Shown: positions 7,988 through 63,690 of the stretch, piece after piece
How positions within the stretch are numbered: position 1 is the first letter of the stretch
Layout of the letters: every line of letters starts with the position of its first letter
Origin: Mesostigma viride
Taxonomy: Eukaryota; Streptophyta; Mesostigmatophyceae; Mesostigmatales; Mesostigmataceae
Length of the DNA stretch: 64,000 bases
Assembly (NCBI GenBank): GCA_009746045.1
Contig: RPFO01000132.1
Location: 1,320,590-1,384,589 of the forward strand
Direction: 5' to 3'
The notes under the pieces: generated by a model
Database searches by the model: none
Seen by the model: the letters and a program-made list of their open reading frames with translations, nothing else
What the model was told of the DNA's origin: nothing
Made by a program: the position numbers and the translations under genes

Positions 7988-10900
7988 ATGCAAAGAGCGA
8001 GGCTTGCGTCGACCGAGGAAGAGCTTTTGCAGCTTCAAAGTCAGTTTCTTTCTGGGAAGGACACGCCAGCTGCCACGTTATTGCATCACAAAGCTCCTGC
8101 AGGTAATGAGCAACACTCTGCGGTGATGTATGCTGGTAACTCAAGAAAGCCAACCGTGTCCCCGTGCTGACGACATGTGCTGCTTCATACTGCATATGTC
8201 CGTTTGCTGCCTCTTGTGCATAGGAAAAGCTGCTGTGCCGACTCCTACAAGGGATCCGCGGCCGCCTTTGGACTCGGGCAAGGCGCCTTCCGCCACAAAT
8301 GCTGGCAAAGAAACGCCTGCAGCTAACGCGGCACTAGACAGTCGCAAGCCTGGGCTCATCGACAACCCTCTTATTGGAGAGATTGTTGAGAAGTCGCCGC
8401 AAGCGGCGGATGTGCCGATCGTCGCCCCCGTCGCGGAAGTGTCGATTGCGTTCCCTGTGGCACAGCATCGCTCCATCTCGAAGGTGAGAGGCGCTTGAGC
8501 ACTACCCGAGTGCCAAACACCAAGCTCTTGGGTCGGTCTGAAAAGTGTGCGCTTCCTGTACTGTGCACATTCTCACGGTGCGGCAGCTGTTTCTTCTATG
8601 CTGTTTATTCTGTGCCTGTCACGGCCTGGCCTGAGATACAGTCATGCATGACCCATACAAATGTCTCGGGGGCTGCGTCTCGTTATTCACGGATAACAAG
8701 CAATCGCACTGTTCGCTGCCTATCCCTCGCAAGCCCCCGCTCGTGTCTCCCCGCGCCGTTGTTGGGTGTGGCAGACACCGCCGCCGCATGTACGGGACCG
8801 CATGCACACCCTGGAATGAATGCACCGCTTGCATCTGTCACAGTTGGCGAACTGTCGTCTCCCTTGCGTGGTTGAAACACTGATCGGGGTGGTGCGCCTG
8901 GACCCAGAGAGGGCAGCTTGTGTTCCTCCGGGGTTGTTACTCTGGCAGTCCTTTGCTTTGAGGGCTCCCAGACGCAGGCTGTCTGTAAGGATATTAATAG
9001 ATTATGAATAAATTAGTATATGGTTGCATCCCCCGGGCGGGTGGGTCACACGGGACACGGGCCAGTGGCCCACACAAGTCCCACACAAGCCAGGAGACTT
9101 TGCTTAAAGGCAGGAGGCGGAAGGAAGCCAGAAGACTTGTCGTCTCACGCAAGTCTCCTGGCTTTCTTAGGACGTGCCACGTGGCAGGCATGTGCGTTAA
9201 CCACAAGATTCCGGGCACCCCGCTGGCCACTGTGAGCATGCAACGTGCCCGGTGCCACCAATTAGGCGTAGCATGGCTGGCAGGCACGCAACGACCCATC
9301 TGCCTGATCTCCTGGGACATGTGGCGTGCACCTGCTTCCCTGCAGCTTGAGTGGTTCAACCGTCCTGCACCCCCTGCTGCGTGCGGTGGAACCGTGCTGA
9401 CTGCTGATCCCCCTGCTGCGTGCTGATTGCGGCCGGCGATTGGTGCTTGGATCTGACACTTCTTGCAGTTCAAGCAGCGCAGGCAGCAGGAGGCGGCGGA
9501 GGCAGCGGATGCAGGGGGGCGTGAAACAGTGCGGCAAGGGGCGATGTGCGAACCAGCAAATCACCTACCAACGTTGGACATCCGAGCGGGTGCTATGGGT
9601 GATGGCAATGCGACCCCCCTGATGGGCGACTCAGGTGTGTTTCCTTGCCGTCCACCGTCGGTGCGGGATGTGGTTGGGATGCCTGCCCCGCGCGTGGTGG
9701 CGAGGGATGTGGTGCCACCCAGGCCACAAGTGGATGTTGCCGGCATGCTGGCGGATCATGAGGTTGCCGACATGCTGGCGGATCCTGCGCCCTCCCTGCC
9801 CACTTCAACGCCCGAGAGCCAGATGGCGGACATCCACGCATCCAACCTGGCCGCAGTGTGCGCGATGACCCGCGAGGAGGTGGAGGGGGAGCTGGAGGAC
9901 TTGCGGGCGCGGTTCCCCCCATCGGCGCTCGAGATGTTGCGGCAGCGCGGAGCACGAAAGCTGGGCGTGGAAACAGTCCCTCTGCTTGCCCAACCTGGCA
10001 CGCTTCCAGGCCAAACAGGGAGGGGCGCACAACTTGTCGAACCAGCGCGGGCCACAACACCTGACCAACCTGGCGCAAAAGCGGTCCAATCGGCGGTGGG
10101 TATGGCCAACGCAAACGGTGTGCCTGCCCGCGCGGCGTCTACAGTCGATGCAACTCACGGCAAGGCGTCGCTGGGTGCTGGCGGACCAGAAAGGGATGGC
10201 CAAGCGGGGGATGCGGCGGTCGCTAACTCTGGCGCTGGCTCCCAAGCGCAGGAGGCCGGGAACCCTTTCTGGCGGCTGGCAGCAGGGGAGGCCAGCGGAC
10301 AGGCGACGTGGGATGGGGTGGCGGGGTTGCCCGAGGGCACGGGCAACCGGTGGCCTGTGCATGATGCCAGCAGTGGTCCTGGCAGCGTATGCAGTGCCGG
10401 TGCTGAAGCTGCTGCGCTGCCCCCGCATCCGCCCCCTTCATCTCCGACCACGCTCCCTGCAACACAGGCGGGGGATGGCCAGGTGGCGGGCGCGCAGGTG
10501 GCTGTCCCTCCAGGTGGCACTGCGGTCAAGGGAGGATCAGTGGCGGGCGTTGCAGGAAGATGTCCAGAGGCGGGCGCTGCAGCCGCCCCGAGTGAGGTGG
10601 TCAGGGGATGGGACCCGGCGCGCATCCGCTTCAACATGCAAGGGTGGCCGATGCGGGTGTTCGCGGAGGAGGATGAGGGGGATGGGGAGGGGGCAGATGC
10701 CAGCACTGCGACGGCCTTGCCCGCCCCCACCAGCGTGGTGGAGCGGGACCCGCTGCGTGCCGGCACCGCCAGCGAGGAGCTCGGGTACAGCTGGCGCGAG
10801 CTGGTGGCGCTCGCGCGCAGCACGGTGGGTGGCGAGTCATGTAGTGTTCAGAGTATGGTGTATGTGTGTGTAGCTGTATAGGGAGTGTACTGTTATATTT

Positions 10901-19900: not shown

Positions 19901-22900
19901 GGTAGTAGTATGTGAGCAAATGGATGGCTCCCACCTTGGTCCATGGTGTCATGTGTGATGGCATTCACTGTGGTGACGGCACCAGCAGATCAGGTGCTAT
20001 CAAGTAGACGCGGTGGTATTAAAGGAATACTTGCATTCACATGTAGTTGCGATGGCATCTGAGGAATGCTTGCGTCCGCGTGGTTCGCACAGACGCTGTG
20101 GTATTAAGGAGTATTTGCGTCCGCGTGGTTCGCACAGGATGGATGGGGAGTTACTGCCTGCGTTGGGCTGGTGGGAGCCTCCTGCAGATGCGGCCATCGG
20201 TGGGGCTTCTCTTGCTGCCATGCGTGCGATTTTCTTTGCCACGCAGATAGTAATGACTAGCAATAGTAATGACTAGCAATGTCTAACGCTCGTTTTAGCT
20301 GCTGCGCTTGTCCGGCATCCGTACCCTCCATGACTGCCGGTCACCCGTGGCTTGTGACAGCTGGCGCACTCCCGACGGGTGTGGCCCCTCGCCCCCACCG
20401 ACAAGTTCCTCTTCCTCTGCCAGGCCTTCCTGTCGCCCTCTGCCGCCTTCCTGCAACCAGGTAGGTAGGGGGCGGAATTGCGACAGTTCTCTACGCTTGC
20501 ATTTGGTGGTGCATGGCCGGCGTTAAGAATGCTTGGCAGCCTGCGGGATGAGGTGGATGTGGAACGAGGGACCACGGGCCAGTGCAGCAACCATTCAAGC
20601 TAATGCCGTTTGGAGTAGGACCACTAGCTGGGGCTGTGATGCAGGGAGGAGCCGCTCAAGCAAGCAAGGGTGAGAGAAAGGTGGGAGGAGGAATTGCTAA
20701 AACAAGCAAGGGTGAGAGAACGGGGGGAGGAGGAATTGCTCAAACAAGCACGTGTGAGAGAACGGGGGGAGGAGGAATTGCTCAAACAAGCACGGGTGAG
20801 AGAACGGGGGAGGAGGAATTGCTCAAACAAGCAAGGGTGAGAGAACGGGGGGAGGAGGCATTGCTCAAACAAGCACGGGTGAGAGAACGGGGGGAGGAGG
20901 AATTGCTCAAACAAGCAAGGGTGAGAGAACGGGGGGAGGAGGCATTGCTCAAACAAGCACGGGTGAGAGAACGGGGGAGGAGGAATTGCTCAAACAAGCA
21001 CGTGTGAGAGAACGGGGGGAGGAGGAATTGCTCAAACAAGCACGGGTGAGAGAACTGGGGGAGGAGGCATTGCTCAAACAAGCACGGGTGAGAGAACGGG
21101 GGGAGGAGGCATTGCTCAAACAAGCAAGGGTGAGAGAACGGGGGAGGAGGCATTGCTCAAACAAGCACGGGTGAGAGAACGGGGGGAGGAGGAATTGCTC
21201 AAACAAGCACGGGTGAGAGAACGGGGGGAGGAGGAATTGCTCAAACAAGCAAGGGTGAGAGAACGGGGGGAGGAGGCATTGCTCAAACAAGCACGGGTGA
21301 GAGAACGGGGGAGGAGGAATTGCTCAAACAAGCACGTGTGAGAGAACGGGGGGAGGAGGAATTGCTCAAACAAGCACGGGTGAGAGAACTGGGGGAGGAG
21401 GCATTGCTCAAACAAGCACGGGTGAGAGAACGGGGGGAGGAGGCATTGCTCAAACAAGCAAGGGTGAGAGAACGGGGGGAGGAGGCATTGCTCAAACAAG
21501 CACGGGTGAGAGAACGGGGGGAGGAGGAATTGCTCAAACAAGCACGTGTGAGAGAACGGGGGGAGGAGGCATTGCTCAAACGAAGGGTGAGAGAACGGGG
21601 GGAGAGCGCACAAAGTAGAACCGTGCGCCACACTCCACGGTAAGCTGCCACACTCTGGGGTGATGTGCCACAGAGTGGAACGAGTCGTCGCAGCGCAGGT
21701 GGTCACGCAGGTGCAGGTGCACGAGCGAGCCTATTCATTTGAGTTCTGACACCTGTCACGCTTGCGGACCTTGGCAGGCTGACCATACAGGCTGCACCCT
21801 GTTTGTGGGAGTTTCCCCCCCAGGCTTCCGATGGCACTGCCGAGCAGTGCCGAGATGAACCACATAGCCGCATGCCCACCATAGCTTTGCACAGCCACCA
21901 CTCTAGCTCTACCGTCCAGCAACAGGCAGCTAGAGCGGACCTCCCGAGTGATCAGCTGTTGGGAGGTATCAGCTGGGCGCCGGACGAGCAGCATCCGCAG
22001 TGTCGTCACGGTTGCTACAATGTGGCTGCGTGTACAAGCCATTTTGGCCTTTGTCCAGGTAACCCATGTATCTTTCACCACACCTGCATGTGCGCATGCC
22101 TGCGTCGGCCCAGGTGTGCGTACCTGGATTGGCCCACGTGTGCGTGCCGTGTAATGTGACGCCGGCCCCCCTATTTGCGTGCGCCACCGCTTGCCGCCCA
22201 GACGTCAAGTGGCTACTGGCCGCCCTGCAGGACGCCTACTGTGGACGCCTCAGCAGTGCACCCCGCGACGGTGGCTGCGCAGGGGACGGAAACCGGCAGT
22301 CATCGACCAGGCGGGAGAGCAGTGGCGAGCTGGCGGGGCCAGCAGCAGCATCTGCCAACGCATCAGCGGACACAAACACAGCACCGGCAGCAGTGGTAGA
22401 GGCGGTGGCAGCCAGCGTGCCGCTGACCATTCCTGACAGCGCGTCATCAGAGGCGTTGGGCGTCAAGCTGGTGGGTGCGGCGGGTGACGCCTGCTTGTCT
22501 GTTCATCCATTAGCGGGCATGCATGGCGCCACCACTGGGGATGCCACTGGCATGCATTATTTAATGAATTGTCACGTAGACTGCGTCACGTGGGTGCCAA
22601 AAAAGGAACCTTCAATCCTTATACTCAATGAGGAGGGAGGGCGCCCTAGCTTCTCTCACTACCCTAACTGGGTAGGCCACAAAGCGCTCTCTCCGCATCA
22701 TGGTGCGGGCGCAACTGTGGGTGCAACAAAGCTTCGGCATAGCAAAAGCGTGGCGGATGCAGTAAGGCTGCCCCATGGTCCAGAGCCCACAGATAGGCTG
22801 GGAACGCATTTAGAGGCGCCGGAGATGGAGAATATAAAGGCCTCTCCCCATGAGTGTTTTTAGGGGCATACCCAGGGTTCACCCACAACCCCCATATTCA

Positions 22901-25860: not shown

Positions 25861-26092
25861 TTACATGAGCATAAGTCCTCAGTCACAGTCGAGTGGGATG
25901 GGATGGGATGGGATGGGATGGGATGGGATGGGATGGGATGGGATGGGATGGGATGGGATGGGATGGGATGGGATGGGATGGGATGGGATGGGATGGGATG
26001 GGATGGGATGGGATGGGATGGGATGGGATGGGATGGGATGGGATGGGATGGGATGGGTTTGGATGGATGGGGCTAGCTATATTCTGATCAGG
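25805..26092 (-). mobile_element. L-A 3' remnant expanded into a (GGATG)n array
   Basis: The flanks GAGCATAAGTCCTCAGT (25868) and GGATGG...GCTAGCTAT match the L-A 3' UTR, which normally reads CATGGGATGGAATGGATGG. In this copy the GGATG core has expanded to about 33 units (25893 to 26057). Confidence 0.75.
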
Positions 26093-26119
26093 CACTCCGC
26101 TGGGCTAGCTATATATATT

Positions 26120-26705
26120 AATAATATAATTACTTACAGCAGAGTGAAATCACTCAAACCAAAGCAAACGCCCAGCTATAATGTCTAAACCTCTATACAG
26201 AGCCATGTCAAATCTCTATACTACGATAAGACCAATGGAAACTCCTAACGGGAGGAACCTAATAGCCCTGCTGCACCGCAAAATCAGCCCGCGTACGGCG
26301 GAGCATGATGTCAGCCATGGCCCGAGTCAGCGCCACCGACAAGCGCTGACGCCAATATGACGTCCAGGTCCGCGCCGACCATGGGGCCCGCTGGCCCTCC
26401 AGGTCCAGCCGGTCCTCCCGGAGCCGGCAACACTCCTTGAAGAAGGCGGAGGTCAGGGGCCCCATGGCCCCAAACTCCTCCAGGACAAAGGGCACCACAC
26501 GATGGTGCCCGACGTCGCCGTAGGCCAGGAGCTTGGCCCGCTCCGCCCGGTCCGCCGTGTAACCTGCCGTGAGGGAGGCCCCAGCCACGTGGCTAAGAGC
26601 CAAGGGCCGCGCCACCGAAACGTCGATAAGCAGATGCCGGCCTCCCCCCTCAAAGTCCAGCACCACGATGTCAGGCCGGTGGTTGGGGGAATAGAAGGCA
26701 GCGCC
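26120..26705 (-). mobile_element. RLE-type LINE family 1, 5'-truncated copy (C-terminal domain and 3' UTR)
   Basis: The minus frame (26666 to 26259) encodes NHRPDIVVLDFEGGGRHLL followed by IDVSVARP, which fits the PD-x(n)-D core of the restriction-like endonuclease of R2/NeSL/CRE-type LINEs, then a conserved helical tail ending ADFAVQQGY. The 3' UTR follows to 26120. The left side is ATATATAT (26109-26119) and the right side is ATATATATAT (26706-26715). Confidence 0.85.
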
Positions 26706-26715
26706 ATATATATAT

Positions 26716-27368
26716 TCATTGAGAATGATAGATTACGGAGGTGAGATAGGCATGCAACATAAGGAAAAACCCGAGAACTGGGAGAATAACCCTGAAGAAA
26801 TTAATAGTAATCTGACACAGACATCCAAGGATCACGCCAGCGGCACAAGGTACAACTAACTATACATAAAAAAATACACGCAGCAACAGCGCTGCCGGCC
26901 CACCATGCAGGCCTGGAAGGAATCTAGACCGCATGGGTCGCGACAAAGTCGGCCCGGGTGCGGCGGAATAACACATCAGCCACGGTGCGAGTGAGGGCGA
27001 GTGACAGACGCTGCCGCCAATACGAGGACCACGTGCGGGCCGACCACGGGGCGGTCTGACCCTCGAGGTCGAGGCGGTCTTCACGGCGCTGGCAGCACTC
27101 GTGGAAAAACTCCGCTGTCTTGGGGCCCATGGCCCCGAACTCCTCAAGGACAAAGGGGATGACCCGGTGGGGCCCCACATTGCCGTAGGAGGCAAACTTG
27201 TCGCGCTCAGCCACAGCGGCAGCAGCGCCGGCATCCACAGCCGCCCGGAGGATGTGGCGACCGGAAAGCGGCCGAGCCACGGAGACATCGATGAGCAGGT
27301 GGCAACCCTGCCCGTCGTAGTCAAGCACGGTAATGTCGGGGCGGTGGTTGGGTGAGTAGAGGGCGGCC
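26716..27368 (-). mobile_element. RLE-type LINE family 2, 5'-truncated copy
   Basis: The minus frame 27328 to 26924 encodes a relative of family 1 (HRPDITVLDYDGQGCHLL, then IDVSVARP), ending RRTRADFVATHAV. The 3' UTR runs from 26923 to 26716, where it meets (AT)n. The 5' end abuts the 5' end of the plus-strand family 1 copy head to head, without a TA tract. The same family recurs at 36585-36945. Confidence 0.85.
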
Positions 27369-29184
27369 CACCCGGCGGTCGCTATTCAGGCCTACTTGGA
27401 TGATATCTACCTTCTGGGCCCTGTGCCGGACACCACCGCGGCTCTGCTGGCACTGCAGACCGCGGTGGCCGACATCAACCTCCAGTTGACCCTGGCCAAG
27501 TGCGCGGTGTACTCGCCCCAAGGTGATTGCTCCGGCTTTCCGCCCCAGCTCTTGGGCCGGGACGAGCGCCTCCATGGGTTGGATGTCCTCGGCGTTCCGG
27601 TTGGCGACCCCGCGTTTGTCATCGATGCTCTGCGGGCCGCCCTCGAGGCACGCACTGAGGTACTGCCCTTGATTGCGCGCCTTCATGATTCGCAGACCAA
27701 GGGTCTGCTTCTGTGGTTTTGCGCTCACCCTCGCGTCGTTCACTGGCTCCGGGGCGCTCTTCCGGCTCAGGTCCGGCTGGCCGCCGAGGGCCACGACGAA
27801 CGCATCCAGTCGGCCTTGGCGCAGCTGGTCCCGGGCCCCGACCTCCCGCCACATGCTATTCGCATTGCCTCCCTGCCTGCACGGATGGGTGGCTGCGGTC
27901 TGACTCGTGCCGCCCGGCTGGCCCCAGCAGCATTTTTGGGCTCCGTCGCTCAGTCGTGGGCGGAAAGCTGCCGGCTCCTGCCCCTTTTGGCTACGGCAGC
28001 GCCTGACCTCCTGGACCCCAGCAGCCCTTTGCCCTTCGTCACCGCCATCCAGGAGGCCTATGCTGAGATCCAGCAGGCCTGTTCTCCCGTCCGTGCCGCT
28101 CAGGCGGTACAGCGCCACCTCCCTCGCGGCACTCCCTCGGTCGCCTCCGTTCAATCTCCCGCCGCATTCCCTGCTCGCGTCATCGATAAACACCAGAAAA
28201 CCTACGCGGGTATTCTGCACACGGCTGATTGGATTGCTCTTTTCGCGGACCTCAACGCCCAGGGACGTGCGTGGCTGTTCTCGCTTTCCTTGCGGAGTGT
28301 GGGCTCGGCGTACCTTCGTGCTCTTCCCATATGGCCCCCCCATTCGCCTTGGCTCCCAGCCACTACTCGGTGGCGCTCCGGCACCAGCTATTTGCCCCGC
28401 AGCCTCTTGTTCCGGCCGGGCGGCCTTGTGGTAGCTGTGGGCAGCCGCTGGATCCCACGGGGACTCACTACCTTGCCTGCATGGGGGGCCAACAGAATCA
28501 GAATTGGTATTTGTATTTGCACACTGTCCTCCTGACGGTGGTGCTCGCCATGATTCGGTCGGTCTTCCCCCACGCCAACATCCGGTCCGAGGATGCGGAT
28601 GGCGCTGCCTTCTATTCCCCAACCACCGGCCTGACATCGTGGTGCTGGACTTTGAGGGGGGTGGCCGGCATCTGCTTATTGACGTTTCGGTGGCGCGGCC
28701 CTTGGCTCTTAGCCACGTGGCTGGGGCCTCCCTCACGGCAGGTTACACGGCGGACCGGGCGGAGCGGGCCAAGCTCCTGGCCTACGGCGACGTCGGGCAC
28801 CATCGTGTGGTGCCCTTTGTCCTGGAGGAGTTTGGGGCCATGGGGCCCCTGACCTCCGCCTTCTTCAAGGAGTGTTGCCGGCTCCGGGAGGACCGGCTGG
28901 ACCTGGAGGGCCAGCGGGCCCCATGGTCGGCGCGGACCTGGACGTCATATTGGCGTCAGCGCTTGTCGGTGGCGCTGACTCGGGCCATGGCTGACATCAT
29001 GCTCCGCCGTACGCGGGCTGATTTTGCGGTGCAGCAGGGCTATTAGGTTCCTCCCGTTAGTAGGCGTTTCCATTGGTCTTATCGTAGTATAGAGCTTTGA
29101 CATGGCTCTGTATATAGGTTTCTAGCTGGGCGTTTGTTTTGGTTTGAGTGATTTCACTCTGCTGTAAGTAATTATATTTTTAAA
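27369..29184 (+). mobile_element. RLE-type LINE family 1, longest copy (RT end, CCHC finger, endonuclease)
   Basis: The copy starts at the catalytic AYLDDIYLLG motif of the reverse transcriptase. The thumb region (27396 to about 28330) is followed by a CCHC finger CGSCGQPLDPTGTHYLAC (about 28427-28480) and the restriction-like endonuclease with HRPDIVVLDFEGG and IDVSVARP. It ends at a TAG near 29044 and a 3' UTR. Two frameshifts disable it: one near 28330, and one near 28616, where four Cs stand against five in the copy at 26.7 kb. The missing RT fingers and the (AT)n at its right end indicate a 5'-truncated insertion. Confidence 0.85.
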
Positions 29185-29192
29185 ATATATAT

Positions 29193-29705
29193 GATCTTAT
29201 TGACGTTTCGGTGGCACGGCCCTTGGCTCTTAGCCACGTGGCTGGGCCCTCCCTCACGGCAGGTTACACGGCGGACCGGGCGGAGCGGGCCAAGCTCCTG
29301 GCCTACGGCGACGTCGGGCACCATCGTGTGGTGCCCTTTGTCCTGGAGGAGTTTGGGGCCATGGGGCCCCTGACCTCCGCCTTCTTCAAGGAGTGTTGCC
29401 GGCTCCGGGAGGACCGGCTGGACCTGGAGGGCCAGCGGGCCCCATGGTCGGCGCGGACCTGGACGTCATATTGGCGTCAGCGCTTGTCGGTGGCGCTGAC
29501 TCGGGCCATGGCTGACATCATGCTCCGCCGTACGCGGGCTGATTTTGCGGTGCAGCAGGGCTATTAGGTTCCTCCCGTTAGGCGTTTCCATTGGTCTTAT
29601 CGTAGTCTAGAGATTTGACATGGCTCTGTGTATAGGTTTATAGCTGGGCGTTTGCTTTGGTTTGAGTGCTTTCACTCTGCTGTAAGTACTTATATTTTTA
29701 ATATA
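29193..29705 (+). mobile_element. RLE-type LINE family 1, short 3' copy
   Basis: Begins within the endonuclease (LLTFRWHGP in one frame, the IDVSV region in the other) and runs to the 3' UTR end. It is bounded by (AT)n at 29185-29192 and 29700-29708. Confidence 0.85.
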
Positions 29706-29708
29706 TAT

Positions 29709-29981
29709 AATTACTTACAGCAGAGTGAAATCACTCAAACCAAAGCAAACGCCCAGCTATAAACCTATATACATGCAGAGCCATGTCAAAGCTCTATACT
29801 ACGATAAGACCAATGGAAACGCCTAATGGGAGGAACCTAATAGCCCTGCTGCACCGCAAAATCAGCCCGCGTACGGCGGAGCATGATGTCAGCCATGGCC
29901 CGAGTCAGCGCCACCGACAAGCGCTGACGCCAATATGACGTCCAGGTCCGCGCCGACCATGGGGCCCGCTGGCCCTCCAGG
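29709..29981 (-). mobile_element. RLE-type LINE family 1, inverted 3' copy
   Basis: Mirror image of the preceding copy, meeting it tail to tail through TAATATATATAA, so the two form a long palindrome. The outer end is (TA)n at 29982-29991, which then joins the broken L-A copy 3. Confidence 0.85.
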
Positions 29982-29991
29982 TATATATATA

Positions 29992-31260
29992 TTCTAAGAC
30001 CTAGTTACAGGGTTGTGGGCACCACGGTCCGAATCACTGTGAATGCCATACCGGCTTGGTAACACGCAGAGCCCCCACTGGCTTGGGGGTGGTCTCATTC
30101 ATTACTTCCTGCCACCTACTATCCTTGCGAACCATCTGCATGCCTCCAGATTACAGACATGCCATGCAGGGGGCCGGCTGCCCTGGCGTGAGCCCATTGC
30201 AACGTGGGTATGTCCCATATCCATGCCTAGTCTATGTATCGATACATCCCGGAAAGTCCACGGGTGGCGCCCCTGCTGCGCGCGCCGGGCCCGCGGGGCA
30301 TGCCATGTGAGAACAAAACGCCCAGTTTGGGGGGGCTTGGTGCCTGCTGAGCTATCCATCGTGCTAGCTACATGATCTGTGCGTGCGAGGTGCCCGGGAA
30401 GGCCCAGGCGCGCCCAAGTGCCAAATAAGTAATAATATAGTAAATCAGCATACAAATCCTCATGGTGAATGTGCATGGCAGCCGATCACGGATTATAGAA
30501 TAATTTGAGCGCACTACGTCAGTAGCATCTTTCGGTGACCCGGCGCGCCATTGAGCTGCTGCTCCAGCTCCTGCCGGTCAGCGTCCGGCGCCTCCGACGG
30601 CTCGATCCATAGGTCAGGATCGTCAAGATGAAGACCTTGAAGAGGTACCGCGTTTGACAGTCCGGGGCAGGGCGGGGTTGCTCCACCAGCGATGGTGCTA
30701 GTGGAGCTGTGCCCAGGCCATACCAATCCGGGTCGTCATGTCGCGTCCGGCGCAGACGCGCAGTCAGGGAGCCATGCAGCTGCCTAGCAGCTTGAAGCGA
30801 CCGCGAATCAAGCGGCCGGGAAAGGGAAAGTGGGGTGTCGCTAAGCTCTAAGAGGCAGAGCTCAGTGGGGGGCCGGGGCCGGCCAGGCCGAGGGCCATGG
30901 CCTCCGTCTTGGGGCTGATTTCGAGACCAACAGCCCGGGCCTCGAGTGGGCCAGGCAGTCCATACAAAGTTGGGCAGACGCTGGCTGCTCAAGGAGAGTA
31001 ATGTCGTCGGCGCATGAATAAGCTCAGCGAGTGAATTCTGCTGTAGTCGGCCCCCCTTTCCCGGGCTTGAATTCTAAATCTCGAGGCCAGGGGCACGCCG
31101 GCCAGCAATGCTAGCAAAGCGGGCACATGCCTGGCACACAACATAATCCACTACAATAAATGAACAGGTATATACGGTGACAGGACGCAGCCCTGCCAGA
31201 CGCCGGTCTGCAGCGGACATGGTGGGGTATTGCCGTCTTTAGTCCGCACCGAGGCCATAT
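29992..31260 (-). mobile_element. LINE family L-A, copy 3, decayed
   Basis: Minus-strand fragments encode the GLPGHLARTDHV motif (about 30390), an ILTILTYG motif (30610), an SPKTEAMALG-like region (30900) and GVWQGCVLSPYI (31195). Many frameshifts are present. The 3' UTR beyond the stop codon is missing, cut by the (TA)n junction. Confidence 0.8.
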
Positions 31261-31419
31261 ATTCCCGTATATTCCGGAAATTTTCTGGCCTGCTGCACTG
31301 GCTGATCTCAAATTGATGTATATTCCATGGTCCGGATTCTCCCGATTTCTGGCCTGCGCTGGCTGTCTCCTTGATATTCCATATTGAGGATTTATGCTCC
31401 GTGTCACAGTTCAGATTCA

Positions 31420-34498: not shown

Positions 34499-34639
34499 AG
34501 GCAAGGCTAGGCTAAATTCTTAACGCATCATCCATGGGGGGTCCCATTATACTAGGCAGAGCGAGGCATCATCCATGGGGGCCATTATGGGCGCACATGC
34601 GCGTAGGGACGACCACTTCCGTGCGCACTCAACATGGCA

Positions 34640-35908
34640 TTACCCGGCCATGCCCACTGCAGACCGGCGTCTGGCAGGTTTGCGTCCTGTCGCCGTACCT
34701 GTTTATTATTGTAGTGGATTATGTTATGCGCCAGGCACGTACTCGCTTTGCTCGCATTGCAGGCCGTGCCCCTGGCCTAGCGATCACGAACGACCTTGGA
34801 GAAAGGGGGCCGACTAACAAGCAGAATTTACTAGCTGACCTCATTTATGCCGACGACATCACGCTCATCGAGAAGCCGGACTGTCTGCCCAACTTTGGCT
34901 GGACTGCCTGGCGCTCGAGGCTCGGGCAGCTGGTCTAGAAATCAGCCCCGAAACGGAGGCCCTGGCCCTCGGCATGGCAGGGCCCCCACCCACACTCCGC
35001 CTCTTAGACGACACGGCCGAGGTCAACTACCCTACTTCAGGCCGCATCAAGCTGCTCGGCAGTTGGCTTCCCGACTGCGAGGACGACCTGACGACACGGA
35101 TCGGCATGGCGTGAGCGCAACTCCATGACCACCGCCGCTGGTGGAGCAACCCCGCCCTACCCCGGATCGTCAAGCGTGACCTCTTCAAGGTCGTCATTCT
35201 GACGATCCTGACCTACGGCGCCGAGACCTGGACACTGACGCAGGAGCTGGAGCAACGACTCGATGGCGCCGTCACCAAGATGCTGCGCAAGGCCCTTAAC
35301 ATCCCCTTTGGTTTGCACATTAGTAATGAGGATTTGTACGCTGATTTGCCCTATGTTTCCCACATTATTAGGCACAGGTGCCTGGGCCTAGCCGGGCACC
35401 TGGCCCGCACAGATCAGGTAGATACATCAGATAGACTAGCTGGCACCAAGCTCGCCCAGCCTGGGCGATATGTCCTCACCTGGCGTGGCAGCCCCCGGCC
35501 GCGCGCGGCAGGGCCGCCACCCGTGGACTTTTCGTGATAGACTCGGCATGGACATGTGCTACACAAGACGTGACGGGCTCACACCCGGGCAGCCTCCTGG
35601 TTTGTCTGTAGTATGGAGGCAGATTAAAAGTGTCTATTAATTAATTATTAATTGTAATATGGAGGCAGATGGTGCGCAAGGATAGATGGCAAGTAGTGAT
35701 GAAGGAGACCACCCCCAAGCCTGTGGGGGCTCCGCGTGTGACCAAGTATGGCATTCATAGTGATTCGGGCCGCGGTGCCCACACCCGTGTAACTAGGACC
35801 TAGACAGCTTACACCATCCATCCCATCCCATGTTCCCCTCCCACTGAGGACTTGTGCTCACGTGACGCAGTCACGTGTCTATTAATTAATTAATTAATAA
35901 TTAATGCG
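34640..35908 (+). mobile_element. LINE family L-A, copy 2
   Basis: Nearly identical to copy 1 and truncated at almost the same place (GVWQVCVLSPYLF). YADD lies at about 34849-34860. A frameshift lies near 34880 and a TGA codon at about 35113. A 25-bp insert of TTAATTAATTATTAATTG type at about 35632 duplicates part of the tail in the coding region. The palindrome is at 35859-35877 and the (TTAA)n tail ends at about 35905. Confidence 0.9.
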
Positions 35909-38899: not shown

Positions 38900-39646
38900 C
38901 TAAGGCGCAGCTGGCGTTGATGGGGTCACCTTTGGGGGCATTGCGCCTGGGGTGGACAGGTCAGGGGCGGACAGGTCCGGTTTGTACAAATCGGGCACCA
39001 GCTCACACCGCTTGAGGCGCAACGCGTCCGCAAAGTAGTCCACCAACCGCGTGAAGACCTGGTCCACGTCCACCTGCTCGCCACCGCGCTCCTTTGACAT
39101 GGAGGTGACCGCCTTGTCGGCGACCCCGCACGGCACGATGTTGTCAAAGTACTTGAGGTCCGTGTTCACGTTCAGAGCGAGGCCGTGGAAGGTTATGCCC
39201 TGGGACACGCGCACGCCGATCGCGCCAATCTTTCGGTCGTCCACCCATACCCCGGTTAACCCGGGGACGCGCCCCCTCGCGGATATGCCGTACTCGGCCA
39301 CTGTGTGGATCATGGCATCTTCGAGCCGCTCCACAAAACGACGCACACCGATGCCGCGGTCACGCAGGCCAATTATTGGATACAATACACATTGCCCTGG
39401 CCCGTGGAAGGTAACCTCGCCTCCTCGCTCGGTAACGAAGAGCTCGGCGCCGGCAGCTCGTAGGGAGGCCTCGTCGACCAGCAAATTGGAGACCAGAGAA
39501 CGGCGACCCAACGTGTATACCGGGAAATGCTCGCATGTTATAACGGTATCGTGCGAAGCTCCGCCTTGCCGAGCGGCCACCGCCTCCTTTTGGAGGCGCC
39601 ACGCATCCGCGTATCGTATAAGACCAAGTCGGCGAACCTGCAACAT
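38900..39646 (-). CDS. LIPB: lipoyl(octanoyl) transferase (LipB/LIP2)
   Basis: An intact 248-residue ORF. The enzyme moves octanoyl from acyl carrier protein onto the lipoyl domains of 2-oxoacid dehydrogenases or glycine cleavage H protein, in mitochondria or plastids. The family motifs RGGEVTFHGPGQ (residues 74-85), PGLTGVWVDDRKIGAIGV with the catalytic Lys139, HGLALNVNTDLKYF (154-167) and VPCG with the catalytic Cys173 are all present. The last 30 residues are Pro/Thr-rich and outside the domain. The ORF starts directly at the conserved VRRLGLIRYADAW segment. Upstream the frame is closed by a stop 36 bases before the ATG. Because CAG/GTTCGC is a possible acceptor just after that ATG, a separate transit-peptide exon upstream is possible. 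Confidence 0.95.
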   Translation of the reverse strand: MLQVRRLGLIRYADAWRLQKEAVAARQGGASHDTVITCEHFPVYTLGRRSLVSNLLVDEASLRAAGAELFVTERGGEVTFHGPGQCVLYPIIGLRDRGIGVRRFVERLEDAMIHTVAEYGISARGRVPGLTGVWVDDRKIGAIGVRVSQGITFHGLALNVNTDLKYFDNIVPCGVADKAVTSMSKERGGEQVDVDQVFTRLVDYFADALRLKRCELVPDLYKPDLSAPDLSTPGAMPPKVTPSTPAAP

Positions 39647-39806
39647 GAAGGGCCTATCAGAGGAGCACTGCCATAATTCCTATTGACATGGATGAGTTTC
39701 TTGCCATCCCAAGGTTGGAGCACCCCCTGGACCTTAGATCTTAAGAAGTAAGCCCACGCAGTTACATATTCACGACAGTTGCACAGCTTGAGAAAATCTC
39801 AATGTC

Positions 39807-56123: not shown

Positions 56124-56268
56124 ATGCCCCATGAGAAGAGAGGTACAGGTGGCACACGGTCCCCAAAGGACCCTAGGCTGTCCCCAAAGGACGTTAGGGA
56201 AGAACAGCAGGAAGTGGCGAGCAAGTCCAGCCAGGGTTCCAGAAGATCTAGCAAGTCCAGTAGGGGCT
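56124..56268 (+). CDS. short basic ORF interrupted by the 7.2-kb element (5' part)
   Basis: From an ATG at about 56124 a frame rich in Lys, Arg, Ser and Gln (SPKDPR, SPKDV, EVASKSSQGSRRSSKSS) runs without stop up to the insertion point. It continues in phase at 63481 on the other side when the element and one GCT are removed. A gag-like or host disordered protein is possible, and function is unknown. Confidence 0.4.
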
Positions 56269-56374
56269 GAGGGGATTCATAAGTGTTTGCTCAATTTCAT
56301 AAATTTTACTCAATTTTTCCACATGTGATTAAATCCTTATATTTGTCAATAAAGCAGGGGTCATCCAGCCTTCA

Positions 56375-57425
56375 GACCATGAAAATAGACCACCCACAAA
56401 AATTGGGCTCATTCTGAGCTCAAATGGTGACATGTGACAGCATACATGTGCAGTTTTTCGTCATTTTCCCCCTTTTCTTACATGAAACAAATATGAATAG
56501 TGAACAAATGAACTCATATCAGGCTGGATTCTTGCAGGCAGCATTTATACCATGAAAATAGACCACCCACAAAAATTGGGCTCATTCTGAGCTCAAATGG
56601 TGACATGTGACAGCATACATGTGCAGTTTTTCGTCATTTTCCCCCTTTTCTTACATGAAACAAATATGAACAGTGGACAAATGAACTCATATCAGGCTGG
56701 GTTCTTGCAGGCAGCATCTAGACCATGAAAATAGACCACCCACAAAAATTGGGCTCATTCTGAGCTCAAATGGTGACATTTGACCGCATACATGTGCAGT
56801 TTTTCGTCATTTTCCCCCTTTTCTTACATGAAACAAATATGAATAGTGAACAAATGAACTCATATCAGGCTGGATTCTTGCAGGCAGCATCTAGACCATG
56901 AAAATAGACCACCCACAAAAATTGGGCTCATTCTGAGCTCAAATGGTGACATGTGACAGCATACATGTGCAGTTTTTCGTCATTTTCCCCCTTTTCTTAC
57001 ATGAAACAAATATGAACAGTGAACAAATGAACTCATATCAGGCTGGGTTCTTGCAGGCAGCATCTAGACCATGAAAATAGACCACCCACAAAAATTGGGC
57101 TCATTCTGAGCTCAAATGGTGACATGTGACAGCATACATGTGCAGTTTTTCGTCATTTTCCCCCTTTTCTTACATGAAACAAATATGAACAGTGAACAAA
57201 TGAACTCATTTCAGGCTGGATTCTTGCAGGCAGCATCTAGACCATAAAAATAGACCACCCACAAAAATTGGGCTCATTCTGAGCTCAAATGGTGACACGT
57301 GACAGCATACATGTGCAGTTTTTCGTCATTTTCTCGGTTATCTTACATGAAACAAATATGAATATTGAACAAATGAACTCAGATCAGGCTGGAAACTTGT
57401 AAGCAGCATGTAGACCATCAAAATA
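56375..57425 (+). repeat. 173-bp tandem array, left arm
   Basis: The GAAAATAGACCACCCAC motif recurs at 56381, 56554, 56727, 56900 and 57073, exactly 173 bp apart, and once more as a variant at about 57246. Units are about 95 percent alike. The last partial unit decays at 57425. Confidence 0.98.
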
Positions 57426-57597
57426 GACTGTTTACAGCTCAAAAGGTGACAAATGAAAGGAAAACAATGCAGTTTGATGCCATTGCCACTGTTCTCTTGA
57501 ATAAAACATTTTTGTGCGACCAAATGAAATTCATGGGCATTCATTGACAATCCTCGAGGTTCGTGCAGTCTGAATTTCGTACAACGGTAGTATGAAG

Positions 57598-58793
57598 TTC
57601 AGACTGGACGGGCAGTCTCGGGTCTTCGATGAATGAATTCCAGTGAATGCAAGATGAATTGCCGAGACCGACCTGTTAGCAAGGAAATTCGTCCTTTTCG
57701 TATGTTCAGACTGGACGGGCAGTCTCGGGGCTTCGATGAGTGAATTCCAGTGAATGCAAGATGAATTACCGAGACCGACCTGTTAGCAAGGAAATTCAAG
57801 TCCTTTTCGTATGTTCAGACTGGACGGGCAGTCTCGGGGCTTCGATGAGTGAATTCCAGTGAATGCAAGATGAATTGCCGAGACCGACCTGTTAGCAAGG
57901 AAATTCAAGTCCTTTTCGTATGTTCAGACTGGACGGGCAGTCTCGGGGCTTCGATGAGTGAATTCCAGTGAATGCAAGATGAATTGCCGAGACCGACCTG
58001 TTAGCAAGGAAATTCAAGTCCTTTTCGTATGTTCAGACTGGACGGGCAGTCTCGGGGCTTCGATGAGTGAATTCCAGTGAATGCAAGATGAATTGCCGAG
58101 ACCGACCTGTTAGCAAGGAAATTCAAGTCCTTTTCGTATGTTCAGACTGGACGGGCAGTCTCGGGGCTTCGATGAGTGAATTCCAGTGAATGCAAGATGA
58201 ATTGCCGAGACCGACCTGTTAGCAAGGAAATTCAAGTCCTTTTCGTATGTTCAGACTGGACGGGCAGTCTCGGGTCTTCGATGAGTGAATTCCAGTGAAT
58301 GCAAGATGAATTGCCGAGACCGACCTGTTAGCAAGGAAATTCAAGTCCTTTTCGTATGTTCAGACTGGACGGGCAGTCTCGGGTCTTCGATGAGTGAATT
58401 CCAGTGAATGCAAGATGAATTGCCGAGACCGACCTGTTAGCAAGGAAATTCAAGTCCTTTTCGTATGTTCAGACTGGACGGGCAGTCTCGGGGCTTCGAT
58501 GAGTGAATTCCAGTGAATGCAAGATGAATTGCCGAGACCGACCTGTTAGCAAGGAAATTCGTCCTTTTCGTATGTTCAGACTGGACGGGCAGTCTCGGGG
58601 CTTGGATGAGTGAATTCCAGTGAATGCAAGATGAATTGCCGAGACCGACCTGTTAGCAAGGAAATTCAAGTCCTTTTCGTATGTTCAGACTGGACGGGCA
58701 GTCTCGGGGCTTCGATGAGTGAATTCCAGTGAATGCAAGATGAATTGCCGAGACCGACCTGTTAGCAAGGAAATTCAAGTCCTTTTCGTATGT
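57598..58793. repeat. 109-bp tandem array
   Basis: Eleven units beginning AGACTGGACGGGCAGTCTCG at 57601, 57708, 57817, 57926 and so on. Two units are 107 bp because AA/AG is missing before GTCCTTTTCG. Each unit contains ATTGCCGAGACCGACCTG, which with GGGCAGTCTCGG can form an inverted pair (CAGTCTCGG/CCGAGACCG). Confidence 0.98.
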
Positions 58794-58847
58794 GCGCGAA
58801 ACATGAGGGGTGGGAAAACGGAATAAGCACAGAAAACGGAATCAGCA

Positions 58848-59069
58848 ATGGCGGAGAAGACGGCGATGGCACTTTTCAAATCGCATGTCATGGACGTGCA
58901 CGAGCCGGAATGGTTGGTGGGGACCCCGGTATGCAAGATATTTTCAGGCCCAAACTCAGGGGAGAAGCGGTATCATGCCCATGTGACGGCGTTTAATAAG
59001 GAGCACAACATGGTCCATGTGCTCTACACAGACGGGGACGATGAAATAGTAGGGTTAGATGAGGTGTGA
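58848..59069 (+). CDS. small Tudor-like domain protein inside the TIR element
   Basis: A 73-codon ORF, the only plausible protein of the element itself. WLVGTPVCKIF, YHAHVTAFNKEHNMVHVLYT and DGDDEIVGLDEV follow the pattern of Tudor-like or agenet-like domains (VGtxVxKxF, hVxYxDGDxExL) common in plant and algal chromatin proteins. The upstream start at 58790 in another frame is an alternative. It directly follows the 109-bp array, which might act as its promoter region. The fold assignment rests on pattern recognition only. Confidence 0.5.
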   Translation: MAEKTAMALFKSHVMDVHEPEWLVGTPVCKIFSGPNSGEKRYHAHVTAFNKEHNMVHVLYTDGDDEIVGLDEV

Positions 59070-59524
59070 GCTGCGCTTTGCGCATGCCCAGGTGTAGAGT
59101 TACCCAATCTGCCACCCGACTCGACTGCGCGAGGTTAGGCGGAGATAGTAGAGTGCGTTCGGATCGAAGCAGGTCGCACACCGGGGCACGGCTAGCAAGC
59201 AAGCGAAGGCGACCCCGCGCCACAAGCGCCGCCCTCCCCACATAATTGATGACTCAGACTCAGACTAGCCTTATTGATGTGAGTTTAAATTTTTCAGTTT
59301 TAGATCCCAGCGTGCAACATACAGGGATGAAAAGCACTTTAACATGTATTATTGTGCTCTGCGACTCCCCAATAGGAGCGCGTGTTTTATCAATGAATTA
59401 TTTAATTAATAATTTTTTCAGTTGGAAATGACGTCAAAACTGGGCTGAGTTTAAATGTTACTTATATATATATACTGTCCTGAGCCAGTAGACATCGCGC
59501 CTTACGCGGATCCGCGCTTTTTAC

Positions 59525-59740
59525 GTTTCAGTTCAGACAACTGGTCTCAGACATGCACGGGGCTCGGCGTGCCATGCTTCCACGTTTGTTGTCTCTTTTC
59601 AGACAACTGGTCTCAGACATGCACGGGGCTCGGCGTGCCATGCTGCCACGTTTGTTGTCTCTTTTCAGACAACTGGTCTCAGACATGCACGGGGCTCAGC
59701 GTGCCAATGCTTCAGTCCACGTTTGTTGTCTCTTTTCATA
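59525..59740 (+). repeat. 66-bp tandem triplication
   Basis: Three copies of CAGACAACTGGTCTCAGACA followed by TGCACGGGGCTCGGCGTGCC and CCACGTTTGTTGTCTCTTTT. Confidence 0.95.
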
Positions 59741-59743
59741 TAC

Positions 59744-60282
59744 TGTCACATGTCACCATTTGAGCTCAGATCGAATGAGCCCAATTTTTGTAGGTGGTCT
59801 AGTATTATGGTTTAAATGTTGCTTGCAAGAATCCAGCTTGATATGAGTTCATTTGGTCATGATTCCTATTTGTTTCATGTAAGAAACCGGTGCAAATGGC
59901 GTAAAACTGCATATTCATACTGTCACATGTCACCATTTGAGCTCATAATGAGCCCAATTTTTGTAGGTGGTGTAGTATTATGGTTTAAATGTAGCTTGCA
60001 AGAATCCAGCTGGATATGAGTTCATTGGTTCATGATTCCTATTTGTTTCATGTAAGAAACCGGTGCAAATGACAAAAGGTTGCATATTTATACTGTCACA
60101 TGTCACCATTTGAGCTCATAATGAGCCCAATTTTTGTAGGTGGTCTAGTATTATGGTTTAAATGTAGCTTGCAAGAATCCAGCTCGATATGAGCTCATTT
60201 GGTCATGATTCCTATTTATTTCGTGTAAGAAAACGATGAAAATGGCGTAAAACTGCATATTTATACTGTCACATGTCACCAT
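59744..60282 (-). repeat. 173-bp repeat, right arm, inner diverged units
   Basis: Inverted relative to the left array. GTCACATGTCACCATTTGAG starts at about 59744, 59925 and 60099. These units are more diverged (GTAGGTGGTCTAGTATTATG) than the outer ones. The array is split at 60282 by the L-B LINE. Confidence 0.95.
60273..60282 (+). repeat. target-site duplication of the nested LINE (left)
   Basis: ATGTCACCAT here and again at 62269-62278 flank the L-B insertion. The last A and T could partly derive from the tail. Confidence 0.85.
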
Positions 60283-62268
60283 GACCGCTGGTTGGCCCAC
60301 AATGTTTCCTTGACCGGTGGGGCTCGCGCCCCCCCCCGCCGCTGCACCCCGAGACGGCCGCCCGCCTCGGGGTCGCCGGACCCCCGCCGCCACCGGCGCC
60401 CCCCTCCTCGGCCGCGGACTACCAAGTCCCCGCCTTGAAGGAGGGCTGCCTTGCCACTGACGACGTCGTCCACCCCTTCACTTTGGAGGAATTGGACGGC
60501 GCCCTTGCTCGTCTGCGGTACGATGCAGCGGTCGGTGCCGACCACCTTTCTGCTGAGCTGCTGAAGACCCCTGATCTGGCGGTTAGGGATCTTCTGCTGG
60601 CGTTCTGCAACCGTGTCCTGCTCTCTGACGAGCCTCCGCCTGCTGAGTGGCAGACGGCCATCCGCGTCATGCTGTACAAGAAGGGCTCTGCTGCTGACCC
60701 CGGCAACTACCGGGGTGTCTGCCTCCAGAGCGCCGCGCTGAAGGTCTTCATGCGCATGATGCTACACAGGCTCCGCGCCGCGCTGGACCCACACCTGGGT
60801 GAGTCTCAGATGGGTTTCCGTAGTGGTCGTAACACTGTCATGGCTGTGTTTGTCGCGCGCCGGTTGATGGAGGAGGTGCGTCGACTTCCCCCTGACAGTT
60901 TGCCGCTGGTCTTCATTTTTGTTGACTATATCAAGGCCTTTGACACGGTTCTCTGGGAGGCTCTTTGGGCCATCCTAGCTCTGGATCGGGTACCACCTGC
61001 GTTTATTGCTGCCATTCGCCGACTGTATGAGGGCTCACAGGCCGTAGTGCGGACTGCGGAGGGCACCACTCCACCATTCCCCCTTCACCACGGGGTGTGG
61101 CAAGGTTGTGTCCTGTCCCCATACCTGTTCATTATTGTCGTGGATCACGTCATGCGCCGGGCACGTGCGCGCTTTACTGCTCTTAAGGGGTTCGAGCCAG
61201 GCTTGGACATCCTTAACGTGAAAGAGCACGGCGGGGTTAGACCGGGGTACCGCCTTGCCGACCTGATTTATGCGGATGATACCACCCTCATCGAGCGCCC
61301 CGAGCACATTCAGACCTGGCTGGACTGCCTGGGCCTGGAGGCGCGGGCGGTGGGGTTGGAGATTAGTGTCAAGACTGAGGCGATGGTGATAGGGGCCTCC
61401 AGTAAACCACCGCTGCCGCGCCTGCTCGACGGGACGGAGGTCCCGTTCCGCGACCGCTTCAAGCTGTTGGGGAGCTGGCTTCCTGACACCGACGACGATG
61501 TGGACACCCGCATCGCCCTCGCCTGGGCCAAGCTCCGTTCGCTCACACCTTACTGGCGCTCGAAGGGCCTGGACGGGCACCGCAAACGCATGCTCTTCAA
61601 GGTCCTCGTCCTCACGGTGCTCACGTATGGCGCCGAGGCGTGGACCCTCCCACCCAAACTGGCAGCTCGGCTCGACGGCACAGTTTACAGGATGCTCCGG
61701 CAGGTCCTTAACGTAGGTTTTTCCGAGCGTCCGTCATCAGAGTCTTTGTATCATGGCATGCCTCGTGTTTCGGACGAGATTAGGCAGCGTAGGATAGCAT
61801 TTGTAGGACACCTTGCCCGCACTAGCCAGGTCGACACCACCCTTGGTCTGGCCGGCCCCCAGCGGCTTGGCCAGCCAGGGCGGCATATTCTGACCTGGCC
61901 TGGCCCCGCGGACATTCCCAAAAAGGTAGGGAAACCTGTCACCAACTACGTTCAGATGTTGCTGGACGACCTAGTGGTCCCAGCCCAGTTTGAGCACCGC
62001 ATACACTCTCTCTCCCGTCTTTGGACTGTCATGCAAGACAAGACGCGGTGGAAGAAGATTGTCAAGGCGCACACGCCCGACCCTGTGGGCAAGCCACCTC
62101 CCCCCAAGCGGAGGAGGCGTTTTGATGAGTAGTGTAGTTAGGATTTTCTAGATAGCCTAGCGTTAGTATAGTTCGATTACGCGGCTTCCTCCACCCCATC
62201 CATCATGGAATATGTGCTACATGACCTCCCCACGGAGGCATGTTATAATTTAATTTAATTTAATTTTA
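60283..62268 (+). mobile_element. LINE family L-B, young 5'-truncated insertion
   Basis: The copy interrupts a 173-bp unit and carries a clean 10-bp duplication. It contains one open RT frame, a 3' UTR with ATGTGCTACATGACCTCCCC and ACGGAGG (the 3' end shared with S-B), and an (AATTT)n tail (62243-62268). The absence of decay points to a recent insertion. Confidence 0.95.
60435..62132 (+). CDS. L-B non-LTR reverse transcriptase, open frame, N-terminus truncated
   Basis: The frame is open for at least 565 codons with no stop. It holds the fingers region WQTAIRVMLYKKG (residues about 72-84), GNYRGVCLQSAALKVF, MGFRSGRNT, FVDYIKAFD with the first catalytic Asp (162-170), HGVWQGCVLSPYLFIIVVDH (219-238), YADD (279-282), LLGSWLP, LTVLTYGAEAWTL, and RRIAFVGHLARTSQ near the end. 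It ends in a basic tail, PPPPKRRRRFDE. The motif set fits RTE/CR1-like LINEs. The apurinic-type endonuclease expected upstream is missing. The given start is a non-ATG codon, and the frame stays open towards the truncation point. Confidence 0.92.
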   Translation: MKEGCLATDDVVHPFTLEELDGALARLRYDAAVGADHLSAELLKTPDLAVRDLLLAFCNRVLLSDEPPPAEWQTAIRVMLYKKGSAADPGNYRGVCLQSAALKVFMRMMLHRLRAALDPHLGESQMGFRSGRNTVMAVFVARRLMEEVRRLPPDSLPLVFIFVDYIKAFDTVLWEALWAILALDRVPPAFIAAIRRLYEGSQAVVRTAEGTTPPFPLHHGVWQGCVLSPYLFIIVVDHVMRRARARFTALKGFEPGLDILNVKEHGGVRPGYRLADLIYADDTTLIERPEHIQTWLDCLGLEARAVGLEISVKTEAMVIGASSKPPLPRLLDGTEVPFRDRFKLLGSWLPDTDDDVDTRIALAWAKLRSLTPYWRSKGLDGHRKRMLFKVLVLTVLTYGAEAWTLPPKLAARLDGTVYRMLRQVLNVGFSERPSSESLYHGMPRVSDEIRQRRIAFVGHLARTSQVDTTLGLAGPQRLGQPGRHILTWPGPADIPKKVGKPVTNYVQMLLDDLVVPAQFEHRIHSLSRLWTVMQDKTRWKKIVKAHTPDPVGKPPPPKRRRRFDE

Positions 62269-62270
62269 AT

Positions 62271-63395
62271 GTCACCATTTGAGCTCATAATGAGCCCAAT
62301 TTTTGTAGGTGGTGTAGTATTATGGTTTAAATGTTGCTTGCAAGAATCCTGGCAGCTCGATATGAGTTCATTTGGTCATGATTCCTATTTGTTTCATGTA
62401 AGAAACCGGTGCAAATGACGAAAAGCTGCATATTTACACTGTCACATGTCACCATTTGAGCTCAGAATGAGCCCAATTTTTGTGGGTGGTCTATTTTCAT
62501 GGTCTAGATGCTGCTTGCAAGAATCCAGCCTGAAATGAGTTCATTTGTTCACTATTCATATTTGTTTCATGTAAGAAAAGGGGGAAAATGACGAAAAACT
62601 GCACATGTATGCTGTCACATGTCACCATTTGAGCTCATAATGAGCCCAATTTTTGTGGGTGGTCTATTTTCATGGTATAAATGCTGCCTGCAAGAATCCA
62701 GCCTGATATGAGTTCATTTGTTCACTATTCATATTTGTTTCATGTAAGAAAAGGGGGAAAATGACGAAAAACTGCACATGTATGCTGTCACATGTCACCA
62801 TTTGAGCTCAGAATGAGCCCAATTTTTGTGGGTGGTCTATTTTCATGGTCTAGATGCTGCCTGCAAGAATCCAGCCTGAAATGAGTTCATTTGTCCACTA
62901 TTCATATTTGTTTCATGTAAGAAAAGGGGGAAAATGACGAAAAACTGCACATGTATGCTGTCACATGTCACCATTTGAGCTCAGAATGAGCCCAATTTTT
63001 GTGGGTGGTCTATTTTCATGGTCTACATGCTGCCTGCAAGAATCCAGCCTGAAATGAGTTCATTTGTCCACTATTCATATTTGTTTCATGTAAGAAAAGG
63101 GGGAAAATGACGAAAAACTGCACATGTATGCTGTCACATGTCACCATTTGAGCTCAGAATGAGCCCAATTTTTGTGGGTGGTCTATTTTCATGGTCTAGA
63201 TGCTGCCTGCAAGAATCCAGCCTGAAATGAGTTCATTTGTCCACTATTCATATTTGTTTCATGTAAGTAAAGGGGGGAAATGACGAAAAACTGCACATGT
63301 ATGCTGTCACATGTCACCATTTGAGCTCAGAATGAGCCCAATTTTCGTGGGTGGTGTATTTTCATGGTCTACATGCTGCCTGCAACAGTCCAGCT
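62271..63395 (-). repeat. 173-bp tandem array, right arm, outer units
   Basis: GTCACATGTCACCATTTGAG recurs at about 62441, 62613, 62786, 62959, 63132 and 63306. Units match the reverse complement of the left array (TTTTTGTGGGTGGTCTATTT) at about 95 percent. Confidence 0.98.
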
Positions 63396-63477
63396 TTAGG
63401 TACCCTCAGATCTGAAAGATTTTTTTTTTACTCATTTGAAGACTTGTGAAATTGAGCAAACACCTATGAATCCCCTC

Positions 63478-63690
63478 GCTCCCGAGGCTCCCGGCGATCC
63501 GATGCAGCCGCTAGGGTTACCGCGGAACGGCAGGCGACCCTGGAGTCGCAGCTAGAGCAAGCTGCCCTAGGGTTTCATCAGCAACCGCAGTCGCCGCAGC
63601 GACAGCATCAGTCTCAGCAGTCGCCGCAGCGACAGCCTCAGTCTCAGCAGTTAAAGAAACTGTGGCTGAACTGTGGTTCAGCCTGCACTG
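63478..63690 (+). CDS. short Gln-rich ORF, continuation right of the 7.2-kb element (3' part)
   Basis: In phase with the ORF at 56124 the frame gives SRGSRRSDAAARVTAERQA, then ESQLEQAALGFHQQ and a Gln/Pro/Ser repeat (QSPQRQHQSQ, twice), ending at a TAA near 63692. It looks like a disordered, possibly gag-like, protein end. Confidence 0.4.

Follow-up and report, generated by a model that had tools for sequence, protein, structure and literature searches.

A foldback-like element with mirrored satellite-sized arrays in Mesostigma viride, probably a non-autonomous DNA transposon

What kind of element carries matched inverted termini and, inside them, mirror-image arrays of a satellite-sized repeat? 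The question is raised by positions 56269–63477 of a 64,000-nucleotide stretch of contig RPFO01000132.1 of the alga Mesostigma viride. This whole stretch is called the window here, and its positions are used throughout. A published assembly of the species is 66% repetitive (PMC6947507). The element is very probably a single cut-and-paste DNA transposon with a foldback-like layout, non-autonomous and by now defective. We favor this reading because the termini match, the flanking duplication is short, the subterminal arrays are symmetric, and no transposase domain was found.

The boundaries had first been drawn in a sequence-only reading of the window, and they hold to the base, as does the GCT duplication outside them. 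The inverted termini, put there at about 31 bp, extend to 34 bp. The features that define the element are as follows:

56266..56268, no strand: left target-site duplication GCT
56269–63477: the element, with 34-bp inverted termini and GCT on either side
56269..56302, plus strand: left terminal inverted repeat, 34 bp, matching the right one at 32/34 positions
63444..63477, minus strand: right terminal inverted repeat, 34 bp, matching the left one at 32/34 positions
63478..63480, no strand: right target-site duplication GCT

The ends of the element read GAGGGGATTC and start with GAGGGG. With equal base frequencies, an inverted pair matching at 32/34 positions is expected about 4e-8 times per 64 kb. 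No third copy of the 31-bp terminus core was found within the window when up to 7 mismatches were allowed. The inner part of the left terminus recurs in degenerate form just inside it (56276–56316, period 19, 2.1 copies).

Inward from the outer ends by 97 and 99 bp, two arms begin that are built largely of one 173-bp unit. The opposite orientation of the two 173-bp arrays and the presence of a separate 109-bp array had both been described previously, and both descriptions are borne out. A 66-bp array had escaped that description. The arrays are arranged as follows:

56366..57428, plus strand: left 173-bp array, five close copies and one diverged innermost copy
57597..58793, plus strand: 109-bp tandem array, 11.0 copies, 98% matches, stopping 54 bp before a Tudor-like frame
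59532..59738, plus strand: 66-bp tandem array, 3.1 copies
59739..60282, minus strand: inner part of the right 173-bp array, 3.1 copies, subtype B
62269..63394, minus strand: outer part of the right 173-bp array, 6.5 copies, comprising a unit cut by a later insertion, an A/B recombinant, and five subtype A units

Repeat detection places the left array at 56374–57428, with 6.1 copies. Along 1,026 nucleotides, the arms (56366–57391 and 62353–63378) are 96% complementary. The element therefore has the long inverted arms, built of internal tandem repeats, that define a foldback-like layout. The five close copies of the left array are 96.0–98.8% identical among themselves, and the diverged innermost copy shares 89.0–93.1% identity with the ten outer copies across the two arms. 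The inner right units, which form subtype B, share only 81.5–86.1% identity with the ten outer subtype A units. Between the subtype B and subtype A units of the right array sits a recombinant (anchor 62476) whose diagnostic sites are A-type at 7/7 and then B-type at 11/11, a clean switch. The unit cut by the insertion is B-type at 6/7 diagnostic sites. The sequence-only reading had also proposed that the element may be a source of satellite DNA. Neither the 173-bp nor the 109-bp unit matches the remainder of the window (blastn, E ≤ 0.01), their patterns have 0 exact matches among viral contigs, and Rfam gives 0 matches across the window at gathering scores.

The ten outer units are nearly as similar between arms (96.9% identity) as within them (97.2%). 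When arm labels are split in all possible ways, 20 of 252 splits reach at least the observed within/between difference. Of the 15 anchored units, 5 lie outside this comparison: the recombinant, the cut unit, two inner units, and the innermost unit of the left array, which is diverged. Copies at matched positions in the two arms are no closer (96.9%) than unmatched copies (96.8%). Both arms share variants at alignment columns 8, 11, 139, and 161. From these patterns, units appear to have been exchanged, rather than a whole arm copied at once. The arrangement is what repeated exchange and conversion among tandem and inverted units would leave, with the mechanism itself proposed from the pattern.

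The right array is interrupted by a fragment of a long interspersed nuclear element (LINE), a retrotransposon lacking long terminal repeats:

60273..60282, no strand: left target duplication of the LINE, ATGTCACCAT, 10/10 identical to the right copy
60283..62268, plus strand: nested LINE fragment, 1,986 bp, 5′-truncated, with a reverse-transcriptase frame and a TTTAA-rich tail
62269..62278, no strand: right target duplication of the LINE, ATGTCACCAT, 10/10 identical to the left copy

Its reverse-transcriptase frame (60435–62132, 565 amino acids) is open and matches PF00078 with an E value of 1.2e-23. Reverse transcriptase, target duplication, and 5′ truncation, the features expected of a LINE, are thus all present. 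At least 14 protein relatives are listed for the frame, after 7,997 candidates were scored. The three closest among the matches listed are Mesostigma viride gene models (jgi/Mesvir1) with 88–97% identity over 46–58% of the query. The fragment is taken to be truncated because 3 of the 14 listed relatives carry the endonuclease PF03372, whereas the Pfam scan of the element's frames found no endonuclease domain in the nested copy. We interpret the interruption as the insertion of a truncated LINE into an array that was already there. Since the LINE splits the right array, the element proper would be about 5.2 kb long; its length without the LINE and one duplication copy is 5,213 bp, which is a statement of length only. 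The window contains further LINE reverse-transcriptase fragments akin to the nested one, in differently framed pieces (1078–2840, 29993–31327, and 34582–35489).

A transposase had not been noticed in the element, and none emerges here. Pfam searches with a threshold of E ≤ 0.1 or laxer covered all 29 of the stop-to-stop frames of at least 60 amino acids and show a transposase domain in none, although short pieces of a transposase that has diverged or is spliced could escape such a scan. Beyond the Tudor and reverse-transcriptase matches, the only hits are to ArgL-like, FOG1-like_PR, and FBPase_C models (E 0.02–0.05); these are far under cut-off and were taken as chance.

The element does hold the remains of a gene, in addition to the LINE frame:

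58848..59268, plus strand: decayed gene for a small Tudor-like protein, homologous to residues 243–380 of the Mesostigma protein P0016

The sequence-only reading had listed one small open reading frame with Tudor-like cargo. The small frame stands, and its Tudor-like character is likely, but it is not the only frame, as the LINE had been overlooked, and it is a broken remnant. The 73-amino-acid frame (58848–59069) ends at a TGA at 59067–59069. A further in-frame stop follows at 59136–59138, then a frameshift, and the C-terminal part (59167–59265), with a basic and acidic stretch, continues in another frame. P0016 is a 381-amino-acid Mesostigma model, the one match among 8 candidates in a search that admitted longer proteins. 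It is identical to the Tudor part of the window frame at 69/82 residues, and nothing in the window matches its residues 1–242 significantly (best E 0.16). The frame was once longer, because P0016 aligns past the stops and the frameshift. Judged by this alignment, the gene in the window is a degenerate version of a longer protein that also occurs in M. viride. An intron model (59064–59172) was rejected because P0016 homology continues through the proposed intron. The sole match of the first protein search, P0001, is identical over 67 residues and extends beyond the point at which the window frame terminates; it may represent a second copy, or the present locus under a different record. No relatives of P0016 were confirmed among viral contigs.

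The label "Tudor-like" is likely but not secure because all three sequences score below the curated cut-off of the PTM/DIR17 Tudor model (27.2 bits): the window frame reaches 23 bits (E 6.7e-5), P0001 24.7 bits, and P0016 19.2 bits. A structure predicted for the 73-residue frame from its single sequence (predicted local distance difference test score, pLDDT, 63) has 0 matches in the Protein Data Bank at E ≤ 0.001. Its 487 matches at E ≤ 10 include Spindlin Tudor chains, with E values of 0.66 and upward, which gives the label weak backing. The predicted fold of P0016 (pLDDT 37) was not used. Neither the frame nor P0016 has a sequence match to a solved structure at E ≤ 1.

Several observations weigh against a transposon. 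A single copy of the element has been seen so far, and all statements on its mobility rest on that copy. The exact terminus has 0 matches in viral and prokaryote contigs, collections not expected to contain this alga. No source of transposase for the element is known. The GCT duplication taken alone is weak, as it would occur by chance in 1 case in 64. The 63–65 bp that separate the termini from the arms are, by eye, dissimilar on the two sides. The termini are linked to the 173-bp unit only weakly, by a 14-bp piece that matches at 12/14 positions with an unadjusted p of 0.02–0.03 in 24 comparisons. Overall, 2 of the 24 comparisons that sought terminal or subterminal sequence inside the units fall below 0.05, about chance level, and that link was set aside. 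Finally, removal of the element had been said to restore an unbroken reading frame and so to support the boundaries independently. The frame exists, as the flanks joined without the element give a plus-strand frame of 124 codons across the site. It offers no independent support, because long frames across the joint are common by chance: 4/6 frames are open there for at least 82 codons, an equally long plus-strand frame arises in 34.5% of 3,000 trials in which the left flank is paired with a random right half, and at 63% of 3,000 background sites at least one frame reaches 124 codons or more. As proof of the boundaries the restored frame is uninformative and was rejected.

The alternative that survives best is compatible with a non-autonomous transposon. 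It holds that the 173-bp arrays are clusters of sites for a transposase or a host protein that raise transposition, as proposed for Galileo, whose tandem repeats carry secondary transposase sites (PMC3573991). We regard this as possible, if somewhat doubtful. One 28-bp block, variable at a single column, recurs exactly in 15/15 anchored units. When the variable columns are permuted, their avoidance of the block gives p 0.005 for a 36-column window and p 0.015 for a 28-column window, sizes that were picked after looking. A 20-column window (p 0.24) and the longest invariant run (p 0.066) are not significant, and exchange among the units would also keep blocks alike. A sixteenth unit, near 59773, appears by eye to have a small insertion within the block. 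The terminus-like motif in the unit is weak, and the B units differ in it. Of the earlier proposal that the arrays serve as binding sites in a non-autonomous element, the element type is supported by the matched termini, the short duplication, the symmetric arrays, and the lack of a transposase domain; the binding role is plausible by precedent but only weakly supported here.

The sequence-only reading had matched the layout to no family. Parallels exist in Tetris, Galileo, MtPH-A6-4, and Jozin. The Tetris foldback transposon of Drosophila virilis is apparently non-autonomous, with no transposase found in the account cited, and its inverted arms contain tandem units of about 220 bp, the number of which varies (three or four in two alleles). 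Its repeats have seeded satellite DNA. Tetris differs in its 8–10-bp duplications, for which Mutator is suggested, in having arms with an outermost domain of up to 866 bp, and in being described there as without a conserved open reading frame (PMC4079207). Galileo of Drosophila likewise has long, internally repetitive inverted arms, and its subfamily F has tandem units of about 210 bp whose number is unequal between one copy's arms; in contrast to the present element, its transposase is known and belongs to the P superfamily (PMC3573991).

Membership in PIF/Harbinger with expanded subterminal tandem repeats, on the model of the subfamily MtPH-A6-4 of Medicago truncatula, is unlikely. MtPH-A6-4 has a 3-bp duplication, 2–35 repeats, and nested insertions, but its unit is 60 bp and it belongs to a superfamily with a known transposase and a TTA/TAA target, whereas the duplication here is GCT (PMC2213677). 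In addition, this copy has no DDE/DDD transposase frame, and its termini are 34 bp long, compared with the 14–25 bp described for autonomous elements (PMC2213677).

A CACTA-like element with mirrored subterminal arrays, as in Jozin of Chenopodium, is quite unlikely. Jozin elements share the 3-bp duplication, here GCT, and the mirrored subterminal repeats, and a 171-bp satellite array lies within some CACTA-like copies of C. quinoa (PMC8978399). That array is near the 3′ end only, Jozin has a transposase and CACTA ends, and the subterminal units expected, which lie in both direct and inverted orientation, measure 10–20 bp (12 bp in C. pamiricum), as opposed to 173 bp here (PMC8978399). The GAGGGG ends of the present element lack the CACTA motif.

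We name no superfamily and place the element only by its foldback-like layout, because GCT is not a PIF/Harbinger target, the ends are not those of CACTA, and a duplication of 3 bp is not the 8–10 bp of the Mutator type seen in Tetris. A few rarer superfamilies (Zator, Academ) also give 3–4-bp duplications. The element is more a new example than a new kind, as similar layouts are known in flies and plants. It is unnamed in the titles and abstract openings of the open-licence papers listed, which is not proof that it is unpublished. We consider it very unlikely that it represents a separate cut-and-paste transposon lineage, present in early streptophyte algae and belonging to no superfamily described so far, one with GCT-type 3-bp targets, satellite-sized binding arrays in its arms, a Tudor-domain cargo guiding or shielding the element on chromatin, and a capacity to seed host satellite DNA.

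It is highly improbable that the locus is no transposon, its two inverted local satellite arrays being bounded by a terminal match and GCT that are coincidental or come from an inverted duplication or assembly fold: the single copy and the unlike sequence between termini and arrays would suit this, but the terminal match is far beyond chance for the window and lies symmetrically outside both arrays, and the 4% divergence of the arms, together with their different unit make-up, speaks against an assembly fold.

If the element is a non-autonomous transposon, a transposase encoded elsewhere would have bound at the termini, and may also have bound repeated arm sites, before cutting the element out and joining it to a staggered 3-bp target. 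Unequal exchange and conversion, both inside each arm and from one arm to the other, may have let the arms grow and stay alike. The Tudor-like gene would be a passenger or accessory cargo that has since decayed, and the LINE would have landed afterwards in one array.

Elsewhere in the window, duplications within 26110–29982 are possibly another foldback-like or rearranged repeat. Positions 26110–26707 match 28599–29191 (inverted, 96.7%), 26110–26630 match 29196–29709 (inverted, 96.7%), and 26110–26404 match 29691–29982 (direct, 94%). Other tandem arrays, at 20654–21604 and 25894–26071, have a 42-bp unit with a 167/209-bp higher order and the unit TGGGA, respectively. A 21-residue match to a pertussis toxin S5 model (21119–21730, minus strand) falls below cut-off inside a tandem array and was taken as spurious. 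Two further domain matches are a lipoyl protein ligase A/B catalytic domain (38903–39679, minus strand; PF21948, E 5e-47) and an RPAP1-like N-terminal domain (9457–10878, plus strand; E 3.4e-9).

These results add a foldback-like element whose arms carry satellite-sized repeats to what is known of an alga that is among the earliest to branch within the streptophytes. Further copies, should there be any, would reveal how mirrored arrays are kept similar inside a single element and whether free satellites are seeded from them. The Tudor-like cargo has a relative in M. viride and may be a lead to a candidate transposon-borne chromatin reader.
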